From Pegea sp. RAD2-039 (lineage: Eukaryota > Chordata > Thaliacea > Salpida > Salpidae): a DNA stretch of 64,000 nucleotides. This document shows, one piece after another, positions 3,001 to 35,853 of the stretch. The stretch lies in NCBI GenBank assembly GCA_034620365.1, contig JAQGEQ010000363.1, positions 434,001-498,000 of the forward strand, written 5' to 3'. The first letter of the stretch is position 1. Every line of letters starts with the position of its first letter. The position numbers and the translations under genes are program-made. The notes below the pieces were generated by a model. It saw nothing but the letters and a program-made list of their open reading frames with translations. It made no database searches and was not told the origin of the DNA.

Positions 3001-6000
3001 TTACCTCATTAAACGATTGTCGTCGAAGTCGAACGCGGTCAGAGCGCGATCTCTCGAAGGTCTTTCACCTCTTCTTTATGACATCAAACTACAAAATATC
3101 GAAGTAAACTTTGAAGACGCGCGCGTTAACCCACATCGGTAACCATGGCAACCACCTTATCTCTACTGCGTCATCATATCACGTGTTTATACTACAGTTG
3201 GTTGTTGGTGGATCTACAACACTTGCCATTTGCAAATAATCTGCTGCAAACAGAAGTTTCAGAAGCGATTAAAGCGGCGGTTGTCATGGAAACCGATCCA
3301 TGGACAGTAGCTGCTTACGTTAATTTTCTTCGAATGCAAGTAGATAAGATGGTTGATCAGATACGTCATGATGTCATTTCTAGCATCGCGGAGACGTGCG
3401 CTACACTCGTTTATCAGAGGTTGGTTGCCATGGTAACCCACGATGAATTAAACATCGATTATGGCCTCACAGACCGGTCCTGGTATCAAGCATCTTAACC
3501 CGAACACAACAGACGCTAGTTGAAGACTTGCCGCCCTCTAGTGGCCAATCTATCGCTTCCAGTTTCATCTCCTCTCTTTTATTCATCTTTCAAATCCATC
3601 TGGAATCTATTTTTGCTATTGATCAATCTAGCGCTGATGACAGTTCGCCACCAGGTGGCGAAAGTCCAGAAGTGAGTACTTTATTGATTCATTTCAAATC
3701 TCAGCTGATCTTTTACTTATTCAGATTTACGTCTGTTGGCCTGACAACGCGCGATCAGCAAAGCTGACGCAGTTGGTACAACGATCGGTGATTCTACTAC
3801 TATCCTACGGGCCTCCGAGCTTTTACAACCGGCTGAAATCATCTGATAACCTCGATGAGAATTTTTACAAATTATTTAAGATGTGGATCAGTCCAGAAGG
3901 TCACTTCCTACCTCAAGTTTGTCATCACCGTTGCCTTAGCAACCGAGGTTGACTATTTGTCTGCTGATAGGGCTTTGCGGTCGGGACGCGCGAAATAATT
4001 CAGTTGATTGCTGACGCCGACAGATCGCGGATTCTGACACATACGCGAATGACGTCATCAACTAAACCAATCATCTTAGCAGCTGTTGATGACTTTCAAC
4101 CTCAAAATATCATCGGATTTATCCAAACTTTTGGGATTCCAGATGATACGATGATTCATCTGTTGAAGGTAAAGATTATATTCGGAAGTGATGATGATGA
4201 AGATGAGGATCTTTTTAGATGTTTGTTGAGAAATTACCGAAAGATGAAGAAGCACGAAAAGCGATTCATGATGACATCATGAAGAATTACATCTCAGATT
4301 ACTTTGATAAGTTCCTAGAGATTCAAAGATTGCGGAAGACTCGTGTTTGTGATGACTTCATCAACTTCTTCAACACTTACAAACCTGCTGTAAAAGTTGC
4401 GGAAGAGATGGAAGTTGATGTAAGTTGATCTTCATCTGTTGATCTTCATCTGTTGATCTTCATCTGTTGATCTTCATCCGTTGATCTTCATCTGTTGATC
4501 TTCATCCGTTGATCTTCATCTGTTGATCTTCATCCGTTGATCTTCATCACTTGATCTTCATCAGTTGATCTTCATCTGTTGATCTTCATCTGTTGATCTT
4601 CATCTGTTGATCTTCATCAGTTGATCTTTATCAGTTGATCTTCATCTGTTGATCTTCATCAGTTGATCTTCATCCGTTGATCTTCATCTGTTGATCTTCA
4701 TCTGTTGATCTTCATCTGTTGATCTTCATCTGTTGATCCTCATTTGTTGATCTTCATCTGGTGATCTTCATCTGTTGATCTTCATCCGTTGATCTTCATA
4801 CGTTGATCTTCATCTGTTGATCTTCATCCGTTGATCTTCATCCGTTGATCTTCATCCGTTGATCTTCATCCGTTGATCTTCATCAGTTGATCTTTATCAG
4901 TTGATCTTCATCTGTTGATCTTCATCTGTTGATCTTCATCTGTTGATCTTCATCAGTTGATCTTCATCTGTTGATCTTCATCCGTTGATCTTCATCTGTT
5001 GATCTTCATCTGTTGATCTTCATCTGTTGATCTTCATCTGTTGATCCTCATTTGTTGATCTTCATCTGGTGATCTTCATCTGTTGATCTTCATCTGTTGA
5101 TCTTCATCTGTTGATCTTCATCTGTTGATCTTCATCCGTTGATCTTCATTTGTTGATCTTCATCCGTTGATCTTCATTTGTTGATCTTCATCCGTTGATC
5201 TTCATCTGTTGATCTTTTAATGATTTTGCTGATTTGATCTTCTTTTGACAGACTATGAAAATGGAGTCAAACAAATCATCCAAGATAAAATCTTCTTCAT
5301 CTTCATCAATTGAATCTTGCAAATATCAACTTCCTGCTAATAATATACTTTCATTAAAAAGCGTTATCAACAAATCCTTCTCATCAGGTTTGATCTTTAT
5401 CACCTTATCTACCTCTTCTTGATCTTAGAGATCAACAGATGCAGATTTAAAGGAATGGAGATGCTACATCTCTTCTCTCACTTCTATCACTTGTTGTAAG
5501 TCTGCAGGAGGCAAGAGAAACGGATATCTCCTCGCTAACATCAAAGCACTTCACAAACTGCTACAAAACACAGGTTGCCCTGGCAACCGTCACCCTCGCG
5601 CCCCTACTCATCACTCATTTCTTCTCAGAATTCTTCATCAACTTTATGACGTCACCGCAGCGCGCGTGCTCTTTTCTACGCCTTATCAATCGCTGTTTGA
5701 CTTCAGGCAAAGTCGGATGCGGCGCTAAAACTCTCTTCAAAAATGTAACTTCAACAACCAATTACAAGGCGCCACGTCATCACTTCATCTCGCGCAGATC
5801 CTCACTATCTTACATGAGAAATGTCAGCAGAACAAAATCGTCTCTTCCTTCTCCAAACTCATCGCTCATTGGCTAATGCATCAAAACGTCACTGATCCTG
5901 ACAAAACATCGAGCGACAAAAAATCCAACCTCGTGGCTGATGGTGGATTGGAGAAGTACATTCGGGAGGGCGTGGATCAGGTAGGTGCTGAGGGGGATAA

Positions 6001-18739: not shown

Positions 18740-21700
18740 ATGGTAGAAGAAGATGATGGCTATCCTCCTGAAACTCACAAAACAGTAAAAAAAATGTTAT
18801 TTCTTGCATGAAAAAGAGATAAAAATTGTAGATTTTTAATAATTATAAATCATTTATAATTTTTTAATAAACTTTATTAATTTGTTATTATTTTATTGAT
18901 TATGTTTTAGGCAGAAGAGTTTATGTTTAGTCAAATAACTTCATTCAAAATTATTGAAGAAGATTTCCACACAGACAAGCGGAGACTCAGTCTAATTGCT
19001 TTTGCTAACCTTTATGGTTATACATTTGTTGCGTCTAAAAATGAATTTAAGGTTTTTATTTTAAACATATTTCAAGTTGAATCTTTAGAAATATTTATAA
19101 TTAAAATTTTTATCTTGTAAATGTTGTTTTTTTAAACAAATGACCAGAATAAGATGATTATATTTAAATCTGCTTACTTTAAATTAAAACTTTTAAAATA
19201 TTTATTATTTAATTTATAATAGTTTAATAAAGATGCTTTATTAATCAGGGATATATAAGTGAAGATATTTTAACTGGCAATCCCAAGGTACAGTTTTCTG
19301 TGTCTTTAAGATCTTCCCCTAGTTGGATCAGTTGCAGTTCTGATAATTTGACTCTAATAGTTTGTTGTAATGGAAGTGGAATTTTAAGAATACTTTTCTT
19401 TGACATGAGGCATCTTATTAATACAGTTAGTAACAATTGCTCTTTCAAAGGTCTTTGCTTCAATGTTTTTATTTGTAGTCAAAACCAGCCAAGACACCTT
19501 TTAGTGATTTTGAGCTTGGTAAATGTAATGAAGAAATATCAGACCTTCATTGGAACCCATCTGTTGAAAATGGGAAATATCTTTCTATGTAAGTAACTGA
19601 TGCAGTTGTTATATAGATTAGAAAGTCTTTGTTTTATAGATGTTTGTCCTCTGGAGCTTTTATCATGTTTTCAGTTGGAGATACAGTTGAATATCATACA
19701 CAAAAACCAGCTTCCTTTGGAGCTACAGCAGGTAAAAACCAGATGTTTATTGTTTCAACTTGAAAAAATTGTAAAAACCATTTCTTATAATAAATTTCTG
19801 TCAAAAGCTTTTAAACTTACTAAAAGTTTCTTTTTCACCTTCTAAAGTTTAAGATTTCTTTTCTAGTTTGTTGGAGTCCCAGAGGGAAGCAGATGATGAT
19901 TGGAAAGTCAGATGGATCATTAGAACAATACACACCTGTAAATGAAATCAAACACAAACCCACCAACCAACCTAATGTTTAAACAGGCGATGGACATCCG
20001 ACGTACAGTTGCTACTTGGGAATGTTTGGATAGATCAGCAAAAGTGTCAGATGTATTGTGGCTTTCTACTTTCCAAGTTGCTGTTACATATGTAGCAAGA
20101 TCTTCAACTGATGTGTCTTTGCATGAACAACCAAATCTGCTGATTGTTAAATTACCTTCGAGTAAAGAAATTCACAAAAAACCCGAATGGAAGTTTTATG
20201 AAGATCCTACATATGGTCAGTCACTTCTTCTTCTTCTTTGTTTAATCTTCAAATTTTCAGGATCAAGTTCTTCGCGTTCACCTCGGGGTTATTTCAATTA
20301 CGTTGAGAAGTGGTCCTCCTTCGTCTACTTCACTTCAACCTCCGCTGAATCCGCTTTGATGGGAATCAACAAAGACACAGTAAATCTTGCTCTTTATCAT
20401 CTCTTCATCTTTTTATCTTCTTCATCTTAGAATCAATGGGAGATATGGAATCTTGATGATGAGTGTATTGCTCGTGTCCCGTATGATGAGGATTTACCGG
20501 ATGAACCATTCACAATCGGAAGTGGTTTCATTCTCACCTCCACTTCACCTATCAACATAAGTCAGTTGTTTCATTTTCTCGTCTACATGACGTCACAAAG
20601 AAGCTCACAGATGGCAAGAGCTACGACGCGATGCCTATTCTGACGTGTTTGTCATGTGATGGCATCATCACATTATTCCACGCAATTGGAAACTCACCGA
20701 AAGACCGCTTCCCGTCCCTAGTAACCGCACGCGCTTGCCTAGAAGCAAGTGGGGAACGAACACCGAAGATCACAGTAAGTGGATCTTATCTTCAACTTCT
20801 GCTCCTGACTTCATATCTTCAGCAGCAACAAGCAGACGTGAACCCGGTTGAAAGCGGATTTTCTAAACCAAAACTTTCAGCGAAACCTTCAGTACTTACC
20901 ACTTTTCCATCAACAACAGCTTTCTCTACTGGTTTTAAAACTCCACTCAAAGCGATTAACTCATTAACAGCAGTAAGCGAAAATGAAGTCGCACCTAACC
21001 ACTCAACCCCCCTGCCAATCAGTAAACCACAAACTTTGCCACCACCACAACCATCTATTCAGAAACCACCACAACCATCTACTCCGCAACCACCACAACC
21101 ATCTATTCAGAAACCACCACAACCATCTACTCCGCAACCACCACAACCATCTATTCAGAAACCACCACAACCATCTATTCAGCAACCACCACAACCATCT
21201 ATTCAGCAACCACCACAACCATCTATTCAGAAACCACCACAACCATCTATTCAGAAACCACCACAACCATCTATTCAGAAACCACCACAACCATCTACTC
21301 CGCAACCACCACAACCATCTATTCAGCAACCACCACAACCATCTATTATTAAACCACCACAACCATCTATTCAGCAACCACCACAACCATCTATTCAGCA
21401 ACCACCAACTTTTCTTGCATCGAAACCAGCTTCAACCAGCGTGAAAGAAAACCAACCTGGTAACTTGTTCATTTCTCGAACACGATGACGTCACTGATGA
21501 CATCAACAGGTAACATATCATCAGATGCAATACAAATAGTAGAAGACTTCCAGCGCGAACTCAATCATTTTCTGACGAACGCGCGACTTGACGAGCATCT
21601 AAACTCATTAGGATCTCCTTCTTTCAAAGTCAATCACACCCTGGTACCCTTCAGCTCTCAACGCCCTCTTTTTGAACCTCTTTTGCTTGTAGGCAGTCAA

Positions 21701-24700
21701 GGAGCTGATCCAGTTCCGCAAACAGATCAGTGTCACTGTGAAGGAACAACACGAAGAGATTGTTGACGTCACTAATCGCTGTCTCGAGTCATTCACGGGT
21801 CTTCGAAGCTTCCAGCTTCACAAACAGCGTTTAGAGAGCGCTGATTACCGCGACGCTTTGCTATCGCGACCGCTCGACCTGAATGACCAGAAAACAATGA
21901 AGGTGCTGACCAATGACCCACAAATGTGGTCCCCTAACCCTTGAATATGCGCAGAGGATTCGAAGCTTGTACTTGTATACGCGCGATGCGATACGTGAAG
22001 CTGATGCAAGTTTGAATGATCAATGGAATGAGTATATAAATAGACAGAACTCTAAGACGCCGAAGACGGGTCGTCACGCTGTTGTAAGTTCCCCTGTTTC
22101 CCCTCACGCCCCTTTAACCGCTCGATGACAACAGACGGAAGAGCGGCAGATGCTTCATCGCGCGCTTGTCAATCAAACTACTATCTTACATGCAAATGAG
22201 ATCAAATTGACCAAGTTGTCTCAGAAACTTGATCGATTGAGACTTCAACGGACCACTGGCCTGGGTTTGCTGCCCGATCGGTGGGTTATGTCGTCATCAG
22301 CGGTCATCAACTAATCTTGAAGTCCTCAACAGAGATGCACTTGTTGCTGGCAATCTGCTGCAGAAGCATCGCGAAGCTGAAACACCACCACGTGATCATC
22401 AGCAACCGGAAGTAAAAGCGCGACGCGCTGAGGTCGCCAACTGGCTGTTGTCGCGTCCCCGGACCCCAGTGCGCACTACAAGTTGGTGATGACGTCATAA
22501 CCGCTCGATTGTTAATCAAATTTCGTCGATTAGTGAAGAAGAATGTGAGCACGATGAAGATGTCCCCTTCACCCCGTCTTCCTGACTCATTCAGCCGTCA
22601 GAAGTCACCTCTTGTCACTACATCCGCTGATCCAGAAGAAGAAGTCCCGAAATCAGTGAATTGTGACGTCAGTGCGAGTAAATCGCTGATTGGGACATCT
22701 ACAATCACTTACGGTGCCCCTGCTCGCCCCAAACATCAAATCCCGTCATCATTGTTCGATGCTTCAGTGACTAAAGAAGCAAAATCAAATCTCAACAATC
22801 CCCCTTTGGTAGGTGCCCCGATTACACCCGAATCACGCCCCCTAATCTTCCTTCATTTGCAGGTTGTTAACATCAAAGAGTTCACGAATTCGCCTCCACC
22901 ACTTACAGCCCCATTCACCCCTCAATTCCAACCCACGTGAGGCTTCAACTGTTCCATCTCTTTTTATCTAATTTTGATCTTCTTCAGATCGGAAGTTCCT
23001 TTAGGAGCTGCTCAGGAAGTCCAAAAGGTTATTAACACAGTTCTGGCTGAAAAAAAGAAGTCTCCTGCTACCACGGAGCCACTAGCAGTGACTAGCACCC
23101 CAGATAAAGTTGCTTCTCACCCTCAGCAACCTTCACAATTTGGACTAACTACTTCTGCTCTCGTTACGACACCAGTCACCAGTGACGTCATAAAGCAGGA
23201 CAAGTCGCGCTTCGATAAAGAAGATCGAACGCCCTTACAGTCTTCAGTGCCCTTGACTTCTGATTCTGTTCGTAAAACTCTCTTTAAAGCACCTCAATTA
23301 GAAGGAGGTGGTGATAGACCTGACTCACCAGCCATTAGCGAACCACAGGAAGAAACCTTATCATCAGCTGGAAGTCATCTGCTTGCTAATCAAGCTGCTG
23401 ATGATCAGATGAAGAAGAATCAAGTGGAAGTCACTCCAGATGATAGTCCTGACGATGAGGAGTCGAACTCTTTGAATAATCAGCAAATTGAATCATTTGT
23501 TGCTACTGAATCTATTAAACCCTTATCAGAATCTCCTGCTTCTGATGAAGTTGTGACTACATCTTCAGGACTTTTTGGAAGTGCTCCAGCAACTACATCT
23601 GTATCTTCAGGACTTTTTGGAAGTGCTCCAGCAACTACATCTGCATCTTCAGGACTTTTTGGGAGTGCCCCAGCAACTACATCATCTTCAGGACTTTTTG
23701 GAAATGCTCCAGCAACTACATCTACACCCTCAGGACTTTTTGGTAGTGCTCCAGCTACTACATCATCTTCAGGACTTTTTGGAAGTGCTCCAGCTACTAC
23801 ATCATCTTCAGGACTTTTTGGGAGTGCTCCAGCAACTACATCTGCATCCTCAGGACTTTTTGGAAGTGCTCCAGCTACTACATCATCTTCAGGACTTTTT
23901 GGGAGTGCTCCAGCAACTACATCATCTTCAGGACTTTTTGGAAGTGCTCCAGCTACTACATCTACATCCTCAGGACTTTTTGGGAGTGCTCCAGCAACTA
24001 CATCATCTTCAGGACTTTTTGGAAATGCTCCAGCAACTACATCTACACCCTCAGGACTTTTTGGTAGTGTTCCAGCAACTACATCATCTTCAGGACTTTT
24101 TGGGAGTGCTCCAGCAACTACATCATCTTCAGGACTTTTTGGAAGTGCTCCAGCAACTACATCTTCTTCAGGACTTTTTGGAAGTGCTCCAGCAACTACA
24201 TCTTCAGGACTTTTTGGAAGTACTCCAGCAACTACATCATCTTCAGGACTTTTTGGAAGTGCTCCAGCAACTACATCATCTTCAGGACTTTTTGGAAGTG
24301 CTCCAGCTACTACATCATCTTCAGGACTTTTTGGAAGTGCTCCAGCAACTACATCATCCTCAGGACTTTTTGGAAGTGCTCCAGCAACTACATCTTCTTC
24401 AGGACTTTTTGGTAGTGCTCCAGCAACTACATCATCTTCAGGACTTTTTGGAAGTGCTCCAGCAACTACATCATCTTCAGGACTTTTTGGAAATGCTCCA
24501 GCAACTACATCTTCTTCAGGACTTTTTGGTAGTGCTCCAGCAACTACATCATCTTCAGGACTTTTTGGGAGTGCTCCAGCAACTACATCTTCTTCAGGAC
24601 TTTTTGGAAGTGCTCCAGCAACTACATCTACATCCTCAGGACTTTTTGGAAGTGCTCCAGCAACTACATCTACATCTTCAGGACTTTTTGGGAGTGCTCC

Positions 24701-26181
24701 AGCTACTACATCATCTTCAGGAATTTTTGGGAGTGCTCCAGCTACTACATCATCTTCAGGACTTTTTGGGACTGCTCCAGCAACTACATCATCTTCAGGA
24801 CTTTTTGGAAGTGCTCCAGCTACTACATCATCTTCAGGACTTTTTGGAAGTGCTCCAGCAACTACATCATCCTCAGGACTTTTTGGAAGTGCTCCAGCAA
24901 CTACATCTTCTTCAGGACTTTTTGGTAGTGCTCCAGCAACTACATCATCTTCAGGACTTTTTGGAAGTGCTCCAGCTACTACATCATCTTCAGGACTTTT
25001 TGGAAGTGCTCCAGCAACTACATCTGCATCTTCAGGACTTTTTGGGAGTGCCCCAGCAACTACATCATCTTCAGGACTTTTTGGAAATGCTCCAGCAACT
25101 ACATCTACACCCTCAGGACTTTTTGGTAGTGCTCCAGCTACTACATCATCTTCAGGACTTTTTGGAAGTTCTGCTATTGTAACAAATGAAGAAACAGGAA
25201 TGGCTGTTGAGACTGCACAAAGTACCAATTTGTTTGGTACTAGCGCATGTTCTCCATTTGGGTAAGTTTCATGTAATTACCAAACAGCTAAATTTTCATC
25301 AACTCTTAATTGTGTTGATGGTTGTTACACCTGATGTCATTGCTTTACTGGTTGCCTAGCAACCAAATAAGATCTTGTTTGTGAAATTTGTAAATCATTT
25401 TGCAGACAAACGAAGAAAAGTTTGTTTGGATCAGGGACAGGAGGATTTCTATCTGGATTAGGATCCACATCTTCTACTTCATCTTCTACTAATCCTTTCG
25501 CTTCACAAGCTGCTTCATCACAAGCAGGTAATTTTCACGTTTTTTGTCGTCATCGGCATCTAATCTTCATCAGTAGGTGATGTCAAATCTATCTTTGGCA
25601 CTACCAACAACACCACCTTTGGTAGTTTCAACCAACCCAAGCAAACGACCCAGGGACCTTTTGGTCAGTCCCTTGTCCCTTCTCAGTCGGCCAACAACTC
25701 TTTCAGCGCCTTCAACCGACCTGCAACTGGTGGGTTCGGGGCAGCACCTGTTTTTGGGGCAACTGCTACTTCAGGTGGCTTCGGTTCAAAACCCGTCTTC
25801 AGCGGAACCTCACCTTTTGGAGGATTCAGTTCTTCCAGCAATCAACCCTTTGCTGCCGCTAGCGGTTCGGGCTTTGCGGCGTGAGTTTCCCGCTTCACTA
25901 ATCACGCACCTTTCATCACTGATGACGTCATAGATACGCGGGAAATAGCAGCAACCAATCAGCGAATACATCGGGTTTTGCAGCGTTAGCAGCAGGTTCC
26001 CCTCAGCAAGGGTCAAGTGGATTTGGTGCCCTTGCTTCCAATCAGAGCTTCGCTTCCACAGGATCCGGTTTTGGTGGTTTTGGAACCCCTGAGAAGTGAG
26101 TAAAACGCGATTGATGACGAAAAAGATTTGATTGGTTAATTTGTTTACAGAAAATCGGCATCTTTCACTCAATGGAGATAG
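18740..26181 (+). CDS. NUP214: Nucleoporin NUP214
   Basis: Cytoplasmic-face FG nucleoporin that docks export factors and, through NUP88/NUP62, sits at the cytoplasmic filaments. I resolved 23 phase-compatible exons: 18740-18784, 18911-19051, 19249-19425, 19479-19588, 19640-19731, 19867-19937, 19987-20215, 20261-20379, 20431-20560, 20611-20774, 20823-21459, 21510-21628, 21693-21902, 21955-22083, 22135-22280, 22333-22481, 22534-22808, 22863-22936, 22988-25261, 25406-25527, 25574-25880, 25934-26095 and 26151-26181; about 1970 residues. The N-terminal beta-propeller shows CSSDNLTLIV, SDLHWNPSVE, VCWSPRGKQ and VSDVLWL. Then come a Pro/Gln repeat, coiled coils (exons 12-16), a conserved VVNIKEF stretch, the GLFG array, GGFLSGLG and a basic FTQWR end that resembles the human C-terminus. 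Length is close to human NUP214 (about 2090). Confidence 0.95.
21042..21401 (+). repeat. 15-copy 24-bp repeat coding PPQPS(IQK/IQQ/TPQ)
   Basis: Inside NUP214 exon 11, 15 tandem 24-bp units each encode PPQPS plus a variable triplet (IQK, IQQ, TPQ or IIK). The repeat links the beta-propeller to the coiled-coil region, where vertebrate NUP214 has an irregular Pro/Ser-rich linker. The units are nearly identical, which indicates recent expansion. Confidence 0.95.
23568..25170 (+). repeat. About 41 tandem GLFG repeats of NUP214
   Basis: A 39-bp (sometimes 42-bp) unit encoding GLFGSAPATTSSS is repeated about 41 times in NUP214 exon 19. Variants include GLFGNAPATTSTPS, TSASS, TSTSS and one GIFG. 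A variant block (TSASS unit, TSSS unit, GNAP..TPS unit, plain unit) occurs at the start and again at the end, and a related block lies in between. This indicates multi-unit duplication. The array supplies the disordered FG domain bound by transport receptors. Confidence 0.96.
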
Positions 26182-33545: not shown

Positions 33546-34925
33546 ATGGCTCATAGAGGATCTTTAGAATGTAAAGTCTATGTAGGAAATCTTGGTAATC
33601 AAGGATCTAAAATTGAATTAGAAAGAGTTTTCAGCTATTATGGAAACTTGAAAAATGTTTGGGTTGCAAGAAACCCGCCTGGGTTTGCTTTTGTAGAATT
33701 TGAAGATCCGAGAGACGCAGAAGATGCAGTTCAAGCCCTTGATGGGAGGTTCGTTGATTGTAGAATTTCATCATCAATGATTTTGTTGATGAAACATTTC
33801 TATGAAAAATATTTTTATTTCAATTTCATAAATGAATTTACTAATTAAATAAAGATAATATTTAAAATATTATTAACAAATTGAACTTCTTTCTACAACT
33901 ATTTTATCAAGTTTTATTATAAGATCTTCAAATTATGATATTGAAGTTTTTATTTTTTGTTTATCAGAACTATTTGTGGAGTAAGAGCTAGGGTAGAGAT
34001 GTCTTCTGGGATGTCTAGAAGAGGAGGTGATAGGTCTAGTGGTGGTAGACGATATGATGACCGCGATGATGGGCGACGATCGCGATATGATAGGTAACTT
34101 CATTACTATGTTTGATATTTCATCAATGAATGCTTTGAGTAACATGAAACTGATTGTAACTTGGTTCAATATAACTTTACATACATAATTTTCTCAGGCT
34201 AACATCACTGCATCATACCTACTGCATATATCAACGCCTTTTACTTAGCCTACAAACCGTCATAAACGACGCACTACGCATCTACTTGCTCGACCCCACA
34301 ACTACAAATCAGCTTTTTCTACTACTTCGTTTAAAATTGTCACCGTCACCATAACAACATCTTCCCAACATTTCGTCGTTAGTAAACTGTGATTGGAACT
34401 ATTATCGAAACCAACATTTTCTGCTGATATTAAGTTTTAAATATTTACCTATTCAATGACCTTGTTGCTAAAATAAAGCAATTATCAAAAGTCTCCGAAT
34501 TGTAATTAGATCTCATTCCCTTTACGTAACTTGTGTCAATTACTTTTTACTCTCATCAATAAGTACTGAATATTTTCATGGTTAGATCTCGTTCTCGCTC
34601 ACCAAGAAGAAGGTATTCAAGAAGTAGAAGCAAATCCCCCCGCCGCAGAAGAAGGTGATTAGTTTTCTTTTTCATCTGCTGGTAATCTGACATTTTTGCT
34701 TTCAGTTTACCTTATAGCCGATCAAGAAGCCGTAGTAGGTCTCCTTATGGCAAAGATAGAGATCGAAGTCTTACACCGAGAAGGTATTTTGTACAGGTCA
34801 TGTTACTAGCTTTTCAATCTCATCTTATTAGTAGGGATCGTTCAAGAAGTCGTTCGAACAGTGCAAGTCCTTTGGGTAGAAATGGAAGGAATCACAGTCG
34901 AAGCTCTAGTAGAAGCCGTTCCTGA
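33546..34925 (+). CDS. SRSF3: SR splicing factor, SRSF3-like
   Basis: Nuclear RNA-binding splicing factor. Five coding exons (33546-33748, 33968-34093, 34586-34654, 34706-34783, 34832-34925) give 189 residues. An RRM occupies about residues 9-80: KVYVGNLG is RNP2, [16 protein letters not shown] is RNP1, and the [13 protein letters not shown] strand follows the first intron. A Gly/Arg/Asp linker leads to an RS domain ([32 protein letters not shown]) ending RSRS. There is no CCHC zinc knuckle, so SRSF3 fits better than SRSF7 (human SRSF3 is 164 residues). Introns are short except the second (34094-34585), which holds a predicted poison exon. A 5'UTR intron is likely. Confidence 0.92.
34198..34381 (+). 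promoter_or_regulatory. Predicted poison cassette exon of the SRSF3-like gene
   Basis: Within intron 2 a 184-nt segment has an acceptor (aattttctcag, ending 34197) and a donor (A|gtaaac at 34382). Read in phase after exon 2 it stays open for 51 codons and then meets TAA at 34352-34354. Several coding exon junctions lie downstream, so inclusion should trigger NMD. The segment is C/A-rich, unlike its AT-rich flanks, and is packed with CAUC, CUAC, UCAACG and ACGACGC words resembling SR-protein sites. Vertebrate SRSF3 autoregulates through such an exon. Confidence 0.55.
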
Positions 34926-35853
34926 GTTTTTTTTTTACGAGGAAGTTTAACAACACGCTCACTTCTGTGTTGCTATCTTATGTTATTTTGTCTAAATTAA
35001 AGACTGAAACAACAAATAGCTTTGACAATACTATCATGATGTAATCTGGCTTTCTTTTACCCACTTGTGGGTACCACGTGATAAGAATTTGATTGTAGAA
35101 ATCTGATCAACTCATTTCTCTCTATACATTAGATAATAAAATAATACTAATTTGATATTAGATTTTATGAGTCCTTAATCAGTTTACCAAAAGTATTCTA
35201 AAGAAGTTTAAATGTCTTTTCTAGTCAGCTAGTTAGTATATATTAAAGTAGGGTTGAAGCAGAATTTTTTTAGCTCTCAATTAAAACTTTTATTTATAAA
35301 TTATTAAAAAGCTATAATTTTTATTATCTGCAGCCGTGGGTTGAATAAATAAATATTTTAAATATTACTTTTGGCTTCTCCAATAAATGTTTCGTTTAAT
35401 CAACTAATCTGGAAAATTATTCTTACCCATAAACTTATTGGAATAAAAATATTTAAGTTTCAGTGCCTCAATCAAAACTCAGATTTAATGAATGTCTGGA
35501 CTTAAGTTGGTACTTAGCTTTATAACTTAACTAGAATCAACTGCTTTAGTTTAATAAAGCCAATTTTTTTTATAATCATTGTCCTTGAAGTCTAACACCC
35601 TAAACTTATTTAGTTTAACTAAATATAACATTTATTAATATTAATTGATTTATCTGCTGTCTTAATTTGTTTATAAAGTTCAAGATCTTTTCTTATGCTT
35701 GTGTACTTAAATAATCACTCAAAAAAGGTTTTTAAGAATTTATCTTGTGTTGGTATCGCACAAATATCCTCATAAATCTTCTCTAGAAAGTTTGTATTCA
35801 GACCATTCATAAATAAAATTCATCAAAAAGAAATTATAGAAACAAAATTTATA
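34926..35853. other. Intergenic between convergent SRSF3-like and TSEN34 genes
   Basis: Holds the 3'UTRs. No canonical AATAAA immediately after the SRSF3-like stop; an ATTAAA near 34997 (aaattaaagac) may serve. AT-rich, no other gene seen. Confidence 0.4.

Follow-up and report, generated by a model that had tools for sequence, protein, structure and literature searches.

The gene discussed here lies on the forward strand at positions 33546-34926 of the window, by which we mean the whole 64,000-nt stretch of Pegea sp. DNA that was analysed, taken from an assembly of 105.7 Mb in 387 contigs. Its five coding exons encode 188 aa, comprising a single RRM followed by an RS region. Exon 1 (33546-33748) encodes the N-terminal part of the RRM and exon 2 (33968-34093) its end and a linker; exon 2 ends in AG, in phase 2. 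Exons 3 (34586-34654) and 4 (34706-34783) encode RS sequence, and the normal stop is found in exon 5 (34835-34926). Introns 1 to 4 measure 219, 492, 51 and 51 nt, respectively. Intron 2 (34094-34585) is long for this genome, because 18 of 23 homology-anchored introns located elsewhere span only 46-61 nt, while four of the 23 exceed 100 nt. We take its position to be equivalent to that of the intron that holds exon 4 in human SRSF3. Intron 1 (33749-33967) contains six CNNC words where 1.6 are expected, with a CATCATC run near the donor, although these are small numbers.

The identity of the gene as SRSF3-like, part of the original prediction, is borne out by the best of its matches to 94 distinct PDB sequences, the SRSF3 chain 9asq_H (E 3.5e-44), below which the SRSF7 and SRSF1 chains rank. 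The protein has the single N-terminal RRM of the SRSF3/7 type (9asq_H; Pfam RRM_1) and, by translation, a C-terminal RS region. The CCHC knuckle, which SRSF7 has and a protein of the SRSF3 type must lack, is absent: Pfam returns no zf-CCHC match in the 188 residues at E 0.01, and does find the domain in a paralog.

Other parts of the window contain repeats and a reverse transcriptase-like open frame. A 39-bp unit repeated in tandem about 41 times (23560-25169) overlaps long open frames of 763 aa on the forward strand and 582 aa on the reverse strand. Two further tandem arrays have units of 14 bp (about 57 copies, 4424-5216) and 24 bp (about 15 copies, 21041-21407), and an open frame at 15329-15829 matches the reverse transcriptase family RVT_1 (E 4.6e-10).

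Within intron 2, a C-rich, G-poor and CNNC-dense segment of 184 nt extends over 34198-34381 on the forward strand. It had been proposed as a poison exon, and its coordinates within the 492-nt intron are correct. The segment is composed of C59, A55, T53 and G17, compared with C15 and G13 in the 104 nt upstream and C34 and G25 in the 204 nt downstream. Its description as C/A-rich therefore holds for C, to which the scarcity of G should be added, but not for A (30% inside, 32-33% outside). A fit with two breakpoints places the compositional island at 34193-34369, with edges that are uncertain (90% sets 34157-34257 and 34297-34428).

Read on from exon 2, the segment stays open for 51 codons and a split codon before the TAA at 34352-34354. 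This stop lies 27 nt upstream of the segment's own 3′ junction and 174 nt upstream of the last junction, so that translation confirms the predicted in-phase stop ahead of later exon junctions, a feature of poison cassettes. The segment contains no ATG. A coding exon was considered and rejected, since the 52-aa in-phase extension belongs to no Pfam family at E 0.01 and the spacing of C is not codon-periodic. A dispersed repeat was likewise rejected: the segment finds only itself in its own genome at E values up to 10, in a search that skips very common words.

Splice sites in intron 2

Splice sites were scored with a model built from 36 introns, comprising 13 read by hand (nine from an SRSF7-like gene and four from the SRSF3-like gene, intron 2 included) and 23 of 26 junctions placed by homology in chaperonin and RRM genes. 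A MAG/GTRAGT donor and a T-rich stretch before a CAG acceptor form its consensus, towards which the model leans, its sites having been model-chosen among frame-consistent options. The proposed donor GT (TTA/GTAAAC, 34382-34383) scores 0.25, under all 36 reference donors. The AG of the candidate acceptor (TTTTCTCAG/G, 34196-34197) scores 4.22, and seven of the 36 reference acceptors are as low or lower. A cassette pair better than 34198-34381 occurs in 987 of 1000 shuffled introns. The segment had been credited with good splice sites; the GT of a poison cassette is in place at the donor, but none of these scores agrees with that description. An alternative donor, GTC/GTTAGT (34378-34379), scores 3.38, with two of the 36 reference donors as low or lower, and gives a 180-nt exon with the same TAA; here a better pair than 34198-34377 is found in 833 of the 1000 shuffles.

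Four earlier splice-site models gave a similar view of the donor. Three of these had been trained on automatically bridged open frames, which contaminated them and degraded their consensus, and the fourth on the 13 hand-read introns, first by themselves and later joined by 21 others. The 34382 donor is at the bottom in all of them, at or below the 3rd percentile in three and under 13 of 13 in the hand-read model. The 34198 acceptor varies, standing at the 18th, 48th and 4th percentiles and, in the hand-read model, again under 13 of 13.

A poison cassette with exactly the ends 34198 and 34381, the donor at 34382 and control by the SRSF3-like protein is thus quite unlikely. Its in-phase TAA lies upstream of junctions, the island begins at most 5 nt from the acceptor by best fit, and weak splice sites are common among regulated exons. 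However, the donor falls short of every reference and does poorly in all five models, and shuffled introns surpass the pair readily, even when the 34378 donor is substituted. As the splice sites are poor, a cassette represents one of several unproductive outcomes and not the demonstrated one.

The strongest acceptor of intron 2 is located at the right edge of the segment, where the AG at 34381-34382 precedes position 34383 and scores 7.03, versus 5.19 for the acceptor of exon 3 itself. A shift of the 3′ splice site to 34383, for which the C-rich tract would supply the upstream context, would lead to a TGA at 34390; in the SRSF7-like paralog, too, the CNNC tract extends as far as a 3′ splice site (L021:5855). 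Nevertheless, 403 of 1000 shuffled introns hold an internal acceptor that is equally good, and the use of 34383 is improbable, both as an explanation of its own and as the mode of the circuit proposed below. Retention of the intron meets a TAA at once (34095-34097). An in-phase stop by itself is therefore weak evidence, as the cassette, the 34383 site and retention all stop the frame.

CNNC words in the segment

CNNC is bound by SRSF3 (PMC10328067; PMC9022966). According to PMC7948361, SRSF3 prefers CNYC and SRSF7 prefers GAY, and an SRSF7 with a dead knuckle switches to CNYC. The segment contains 30 CNNC words compared with 18.1 in 1000 dinucleotide shuffles (p 0.001). The same shuffles show enrichment of WCWWC (12 versus 5.0, p 0.004), CTAC (7 versus 2.35, p 0.003) and CATC (4 versus 1.4, p 0.04). 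Enrichment of the narrower word CNYC is weak (13 versus 8.7, p 0.045). The claim that the segment is dense in such words stands for CATC and CTAC, but not for TCAACG (UCAACG in the RNA) and ACGAC, each of which occurs once, the latter not above chance in the shuffles (p 0.19). The one UCAACG is contained in ATCAACGCC (also given as AUCAACGCC; 34230-34238), a run of nine letters also present in the CD44 exon v9 enhancer that SRSF3 binds (PMC10321290); it occurs three times in 261 kb, counting both strands.

The spacing between C residues is enriched at 3 (z 3.94) and depleted at 2 and 4, and it is not enriched at 6 or 9, a pattern that indicates a pile-up of CNNC and not codon periodicity. The rest of the intron contributes little, with two CNNC words in the upstream and four in the downstream flank, which gives 36 for the intron when its parts are added (2, 30, 4).

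How rare such a cluster is was surveyed in 2818 tiles of 184 nt on both strands of 261 kb, a sample that is not random for the genome, as 197 kb of it lie beyond the window and were chosen around RRM genes. Exclusion of 1859 tiles with repeats or open frames of at least 60 aa left 959, among which a count of 25 or more CNNC is reached by one, the segment's own. The tile at window position 22817 also has 25 and was narrowly excluded by an open frame of exactly 60 aa. The z-score by itself is not rare, being at least 3.5 in 14 of the 959 tiles. These data support the view that CNNC words of the SRSF3 type are clustered in the segment to a statistically unusual degree; as regards a poison cassette, binding sites for the gene's own protein are present at the level of motif (CNNC 30 versus 18). 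Elsewhere in the sample, a minisatellite with CAACCACTTGCAACCATCAT-like units (L037:8265-9012) is rich in CNNC through repetition.

The cluster could also aid intronic polyadenylation at the AATAAA at 34472-34477, which would yield a protein of the RRM without the RS region, ending at 34095. SRSF3 and SRSF7 are reported to influence the choice of poly(A) site (PMC7948361), and the signal is indeed present; but the hexamer is found seven times between 33501 and 36000, as expected for AT-rich DNA, and this reading is highly improbable.

The matching intron of an SRSF7-like paralog

The closest other match in the genome to the RRM of the SRSF3-like protein (59%) is encoded at locus L021 on contig 202. 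This paralog encodes an RRM and a CCHC knuckle (Pfam), and for this reason is called SRSF7-like. The intron that follows its knuckle exon (L021:5345-5854, 510 nt) matches intron 2 of the SRSF3-like gene in phase and in protein position. It too is loaded with CNNC: positions 5597-5854 contain 36 where 24 are expected, and the best 184-nt stretch of the intron holds 26, whereas the best one lying wholly outside it, on the forward strand of the 10-kb locus, holds 17. Density in 5597-5854 reaches 14.0 per 100 nt, against 4.5 to 11.3 in the other introns of the gene, so that this cluster stands out less sharply than that of the SRSF3-like gene. Besides the spacing of 3, that of 6 is mildly enriched between the C residues of this element (z 2.1). 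Copies of a palindrome, TGACGTCA, number 19 in L021 (10 kb), 27 in the 64-kb window and eight in L028, and between zero and three in every one of the 18 remaining loci.

Unproductive outcomes are also close at hand in this gene. Retention stops immediately (L021:5355), and all 12 internal acceptors tried (12/12) stop ahead of the next normal exon. A candidate cassette at 5657-5770 (114 nt, TAA at 5658) has an acceptor at or above 32 of the 36 references and a donor at 16 of 36, and is equalled in 141 of 1000 shuffled introns. It looks better than the cassette of the SRSF3-like gene and may be treated as a lead only.

The 261 kb contain 46 CNNC clusters, and only the SRSF3-like and SRSF7-like elements pass all four filters, which were set after the list had been seen (non-repeat, no open frame of 100 aa, G/C < 0.5 and z of at least 3). 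Near misses include L035 9407 (complexity 0.86; read as coding) and, on the reverse strand, L031 4967 and L030 4781, with open frames of 108 and 127 aa. Neither element is enriched in GAY, which suggests that both are more probably read by the SRSF3-like protein. Homology between the two elements was considered and is not claimed, as their alignment does not exceed chance (local p 0.15, strict scoring p 0.26), nor does that of the whole introns (p 0.58). The two do have more 6-mers in common than shuffles have (p 0.017), with p 0.047 for 5-mers and p 0.078 for 7-mers.

That the segment is a chance C-rich island without function in a long intron is possible but doubtful. Its pairs of splice sites are at chance level, and z-scores of its size recur among the tiles. 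Its fold is ordinary (z -0.24; 74 of 200 shuffles fold equally well) and Rfam gives no match anywhere in the window, on which grounds a structured RNA was rejected as well. On the other hand, no other tile of the 959 has as high a count, and a second cluster is found in the matching intron of the paralog.

Retention could alternatively account for both clusters, with protein bound at many intronic sites blocking removal of the intron. Clusters of this kind require no splice sites, the stop is immediate in both paralogs, and the intron is long by the standard of a genome whose introns mostly span 46-61 nt. Mammalian SRSF7 is reported to retain an intron carrying 76 of its motifs (PMC9022966), and the retained introns of fungal SRSF5-type genes are described as unusually long (PMC4379411). 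By its sequence, intron 2 resembles the SRSF7 type of retained intron, with 36 CNNC words in one intron and the stop at 34095. However, the mode known for SRSF3 itself is a cassette (PMC3439968), and retention is unlikely, whether as a separate explanation or as the mode of the circuit.

A predicted circuit of self-repression

Taken together, these features point to a circuit in which intron 2 would provide a CNNC platform of SRSF3-type sites. When abundant, the SRSF3-like protein would bind this platform in its own pre-mRNA and shift splicing towards an unproductive product, whereupon its level would fall. This could happen by inclusion of an exon that begins at 34198, by splicing to the 3′ site at 34383 or by failure to remove intron 2. 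In every case the frame would stop ahead of later junctions and the mRNA would be exposed to removal by NMD. The SRSF7-like gene, with a comparable platform in the matching intron, would be self- or cross-repressed in the same way. We give a probability of roughly 0.6 to this reading, namely that the platform of intron 2 drives unproductive splicing and thereby self- and cross-repression, with the SRSF7-like gene behaving likewise. The gene, its cluster, the stops, the cluster of the paralog and a UPF1 gene are all present in the genome; we infer binding, the change in splicing, NMD and the feedback. Three exon matches encode the zinc-binding domain of UPF1, and NMD is thus plausible. Self-repression as first proposed for this locus finds partial support in the SRSF3-like gene, the two clusters and UPF1, whereas an exon delimited by good splice sites is not supported. 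A cassette that uses the 34198 acceptor is the likeliest of the modes, though still less likely than not.

One of the nearest known systems is exon 4 of vertebrate SRSF3, which belongs to the same gene family and is a self-promoted poison cassette of 456 nt, compared with 184 nt here (PMC10321290, PMC3439968). Going by these sources, both lie in an intron that follows the RRM and precedes the bulk of the RS region, stop in phase upstream of later junctions and contain SRSF3-type sites. In contrast, the donor of the Pegea element is not recognisable as a normal one, and the element is known from DNA sequence alone. Mouse SRSF3 is reported to crosslink to its own poison exon and that of SRSF7 and to increase their inclusion in minigenes (PMC3439968). 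SRSF3 binds mammalian SRSF7 transcripts and promotes their unproductive splicing; the SRSF7-like gene is similar in that SRSF3-type words cluster in its matching intron, where retention stops at once. The Split-ORFs described for SRSF7 (PMC9022966) differ in that the SRSF3-like segment has no ATG, so that a split open frame would have no restart there. By analogy, the element of intron 2 is predicted to work like the vertebrate SRSF3/SRSF7 circuits.

Among invertebrates, Drosophila Rbp1 and Rbp1-like are an SRSF3-like pair reported to regulate themselves and each other through negative feedback (Kumar and Lopez, 2005, as cited in PMC4617965). Poison-exon autoregulation of a non-vertebrate SRSF3 or SRSF7 was not found in the literature searched, part of which was judged by title, and its absence is claimed for that literature only. 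Elements for unproductive splicing are reported to arise repeatedly in SR genes (Lareau and Brenner, 2015, PMC4379411). That study deals with SRSF4, SRSF5 and SRSF6, other genes than those considered here; the likeness lies in SR-gene introns that stop in every alternative tested and in elements of paralogs that cannot be aligned.

A wider reading would treat the SRSF3-like and SRSF7-like genes as one homeostatic pair, whose long introns, equal in place and phase and loaded with CNNC, are both read by the SRSF3-like protein. The density of sites may then go back to the ancestor that both genes share, as a trace of an old circuit, sequence and mode having drifted, and the common trait of the pair would be this density rather than an alignable exon. 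This extension of the circuit is speculative and, at present, unlikely.

The main interest of the locus lies in the paired SRSF3-like and SRSF7-like introns. SR genes repeatedly gain unproductive splicing, and the question is whether exon, intron or only the binding sites are inherited. A lineage of short introns, in which these two genes each carry one long, site-loaded intron, would be a clean place to pose this question, and the prediction is checkable by ordinary RNA-seq. The locus also cautions against calling a compositional island in an SR gene an exon just because it is bounded by an AG and a GT.
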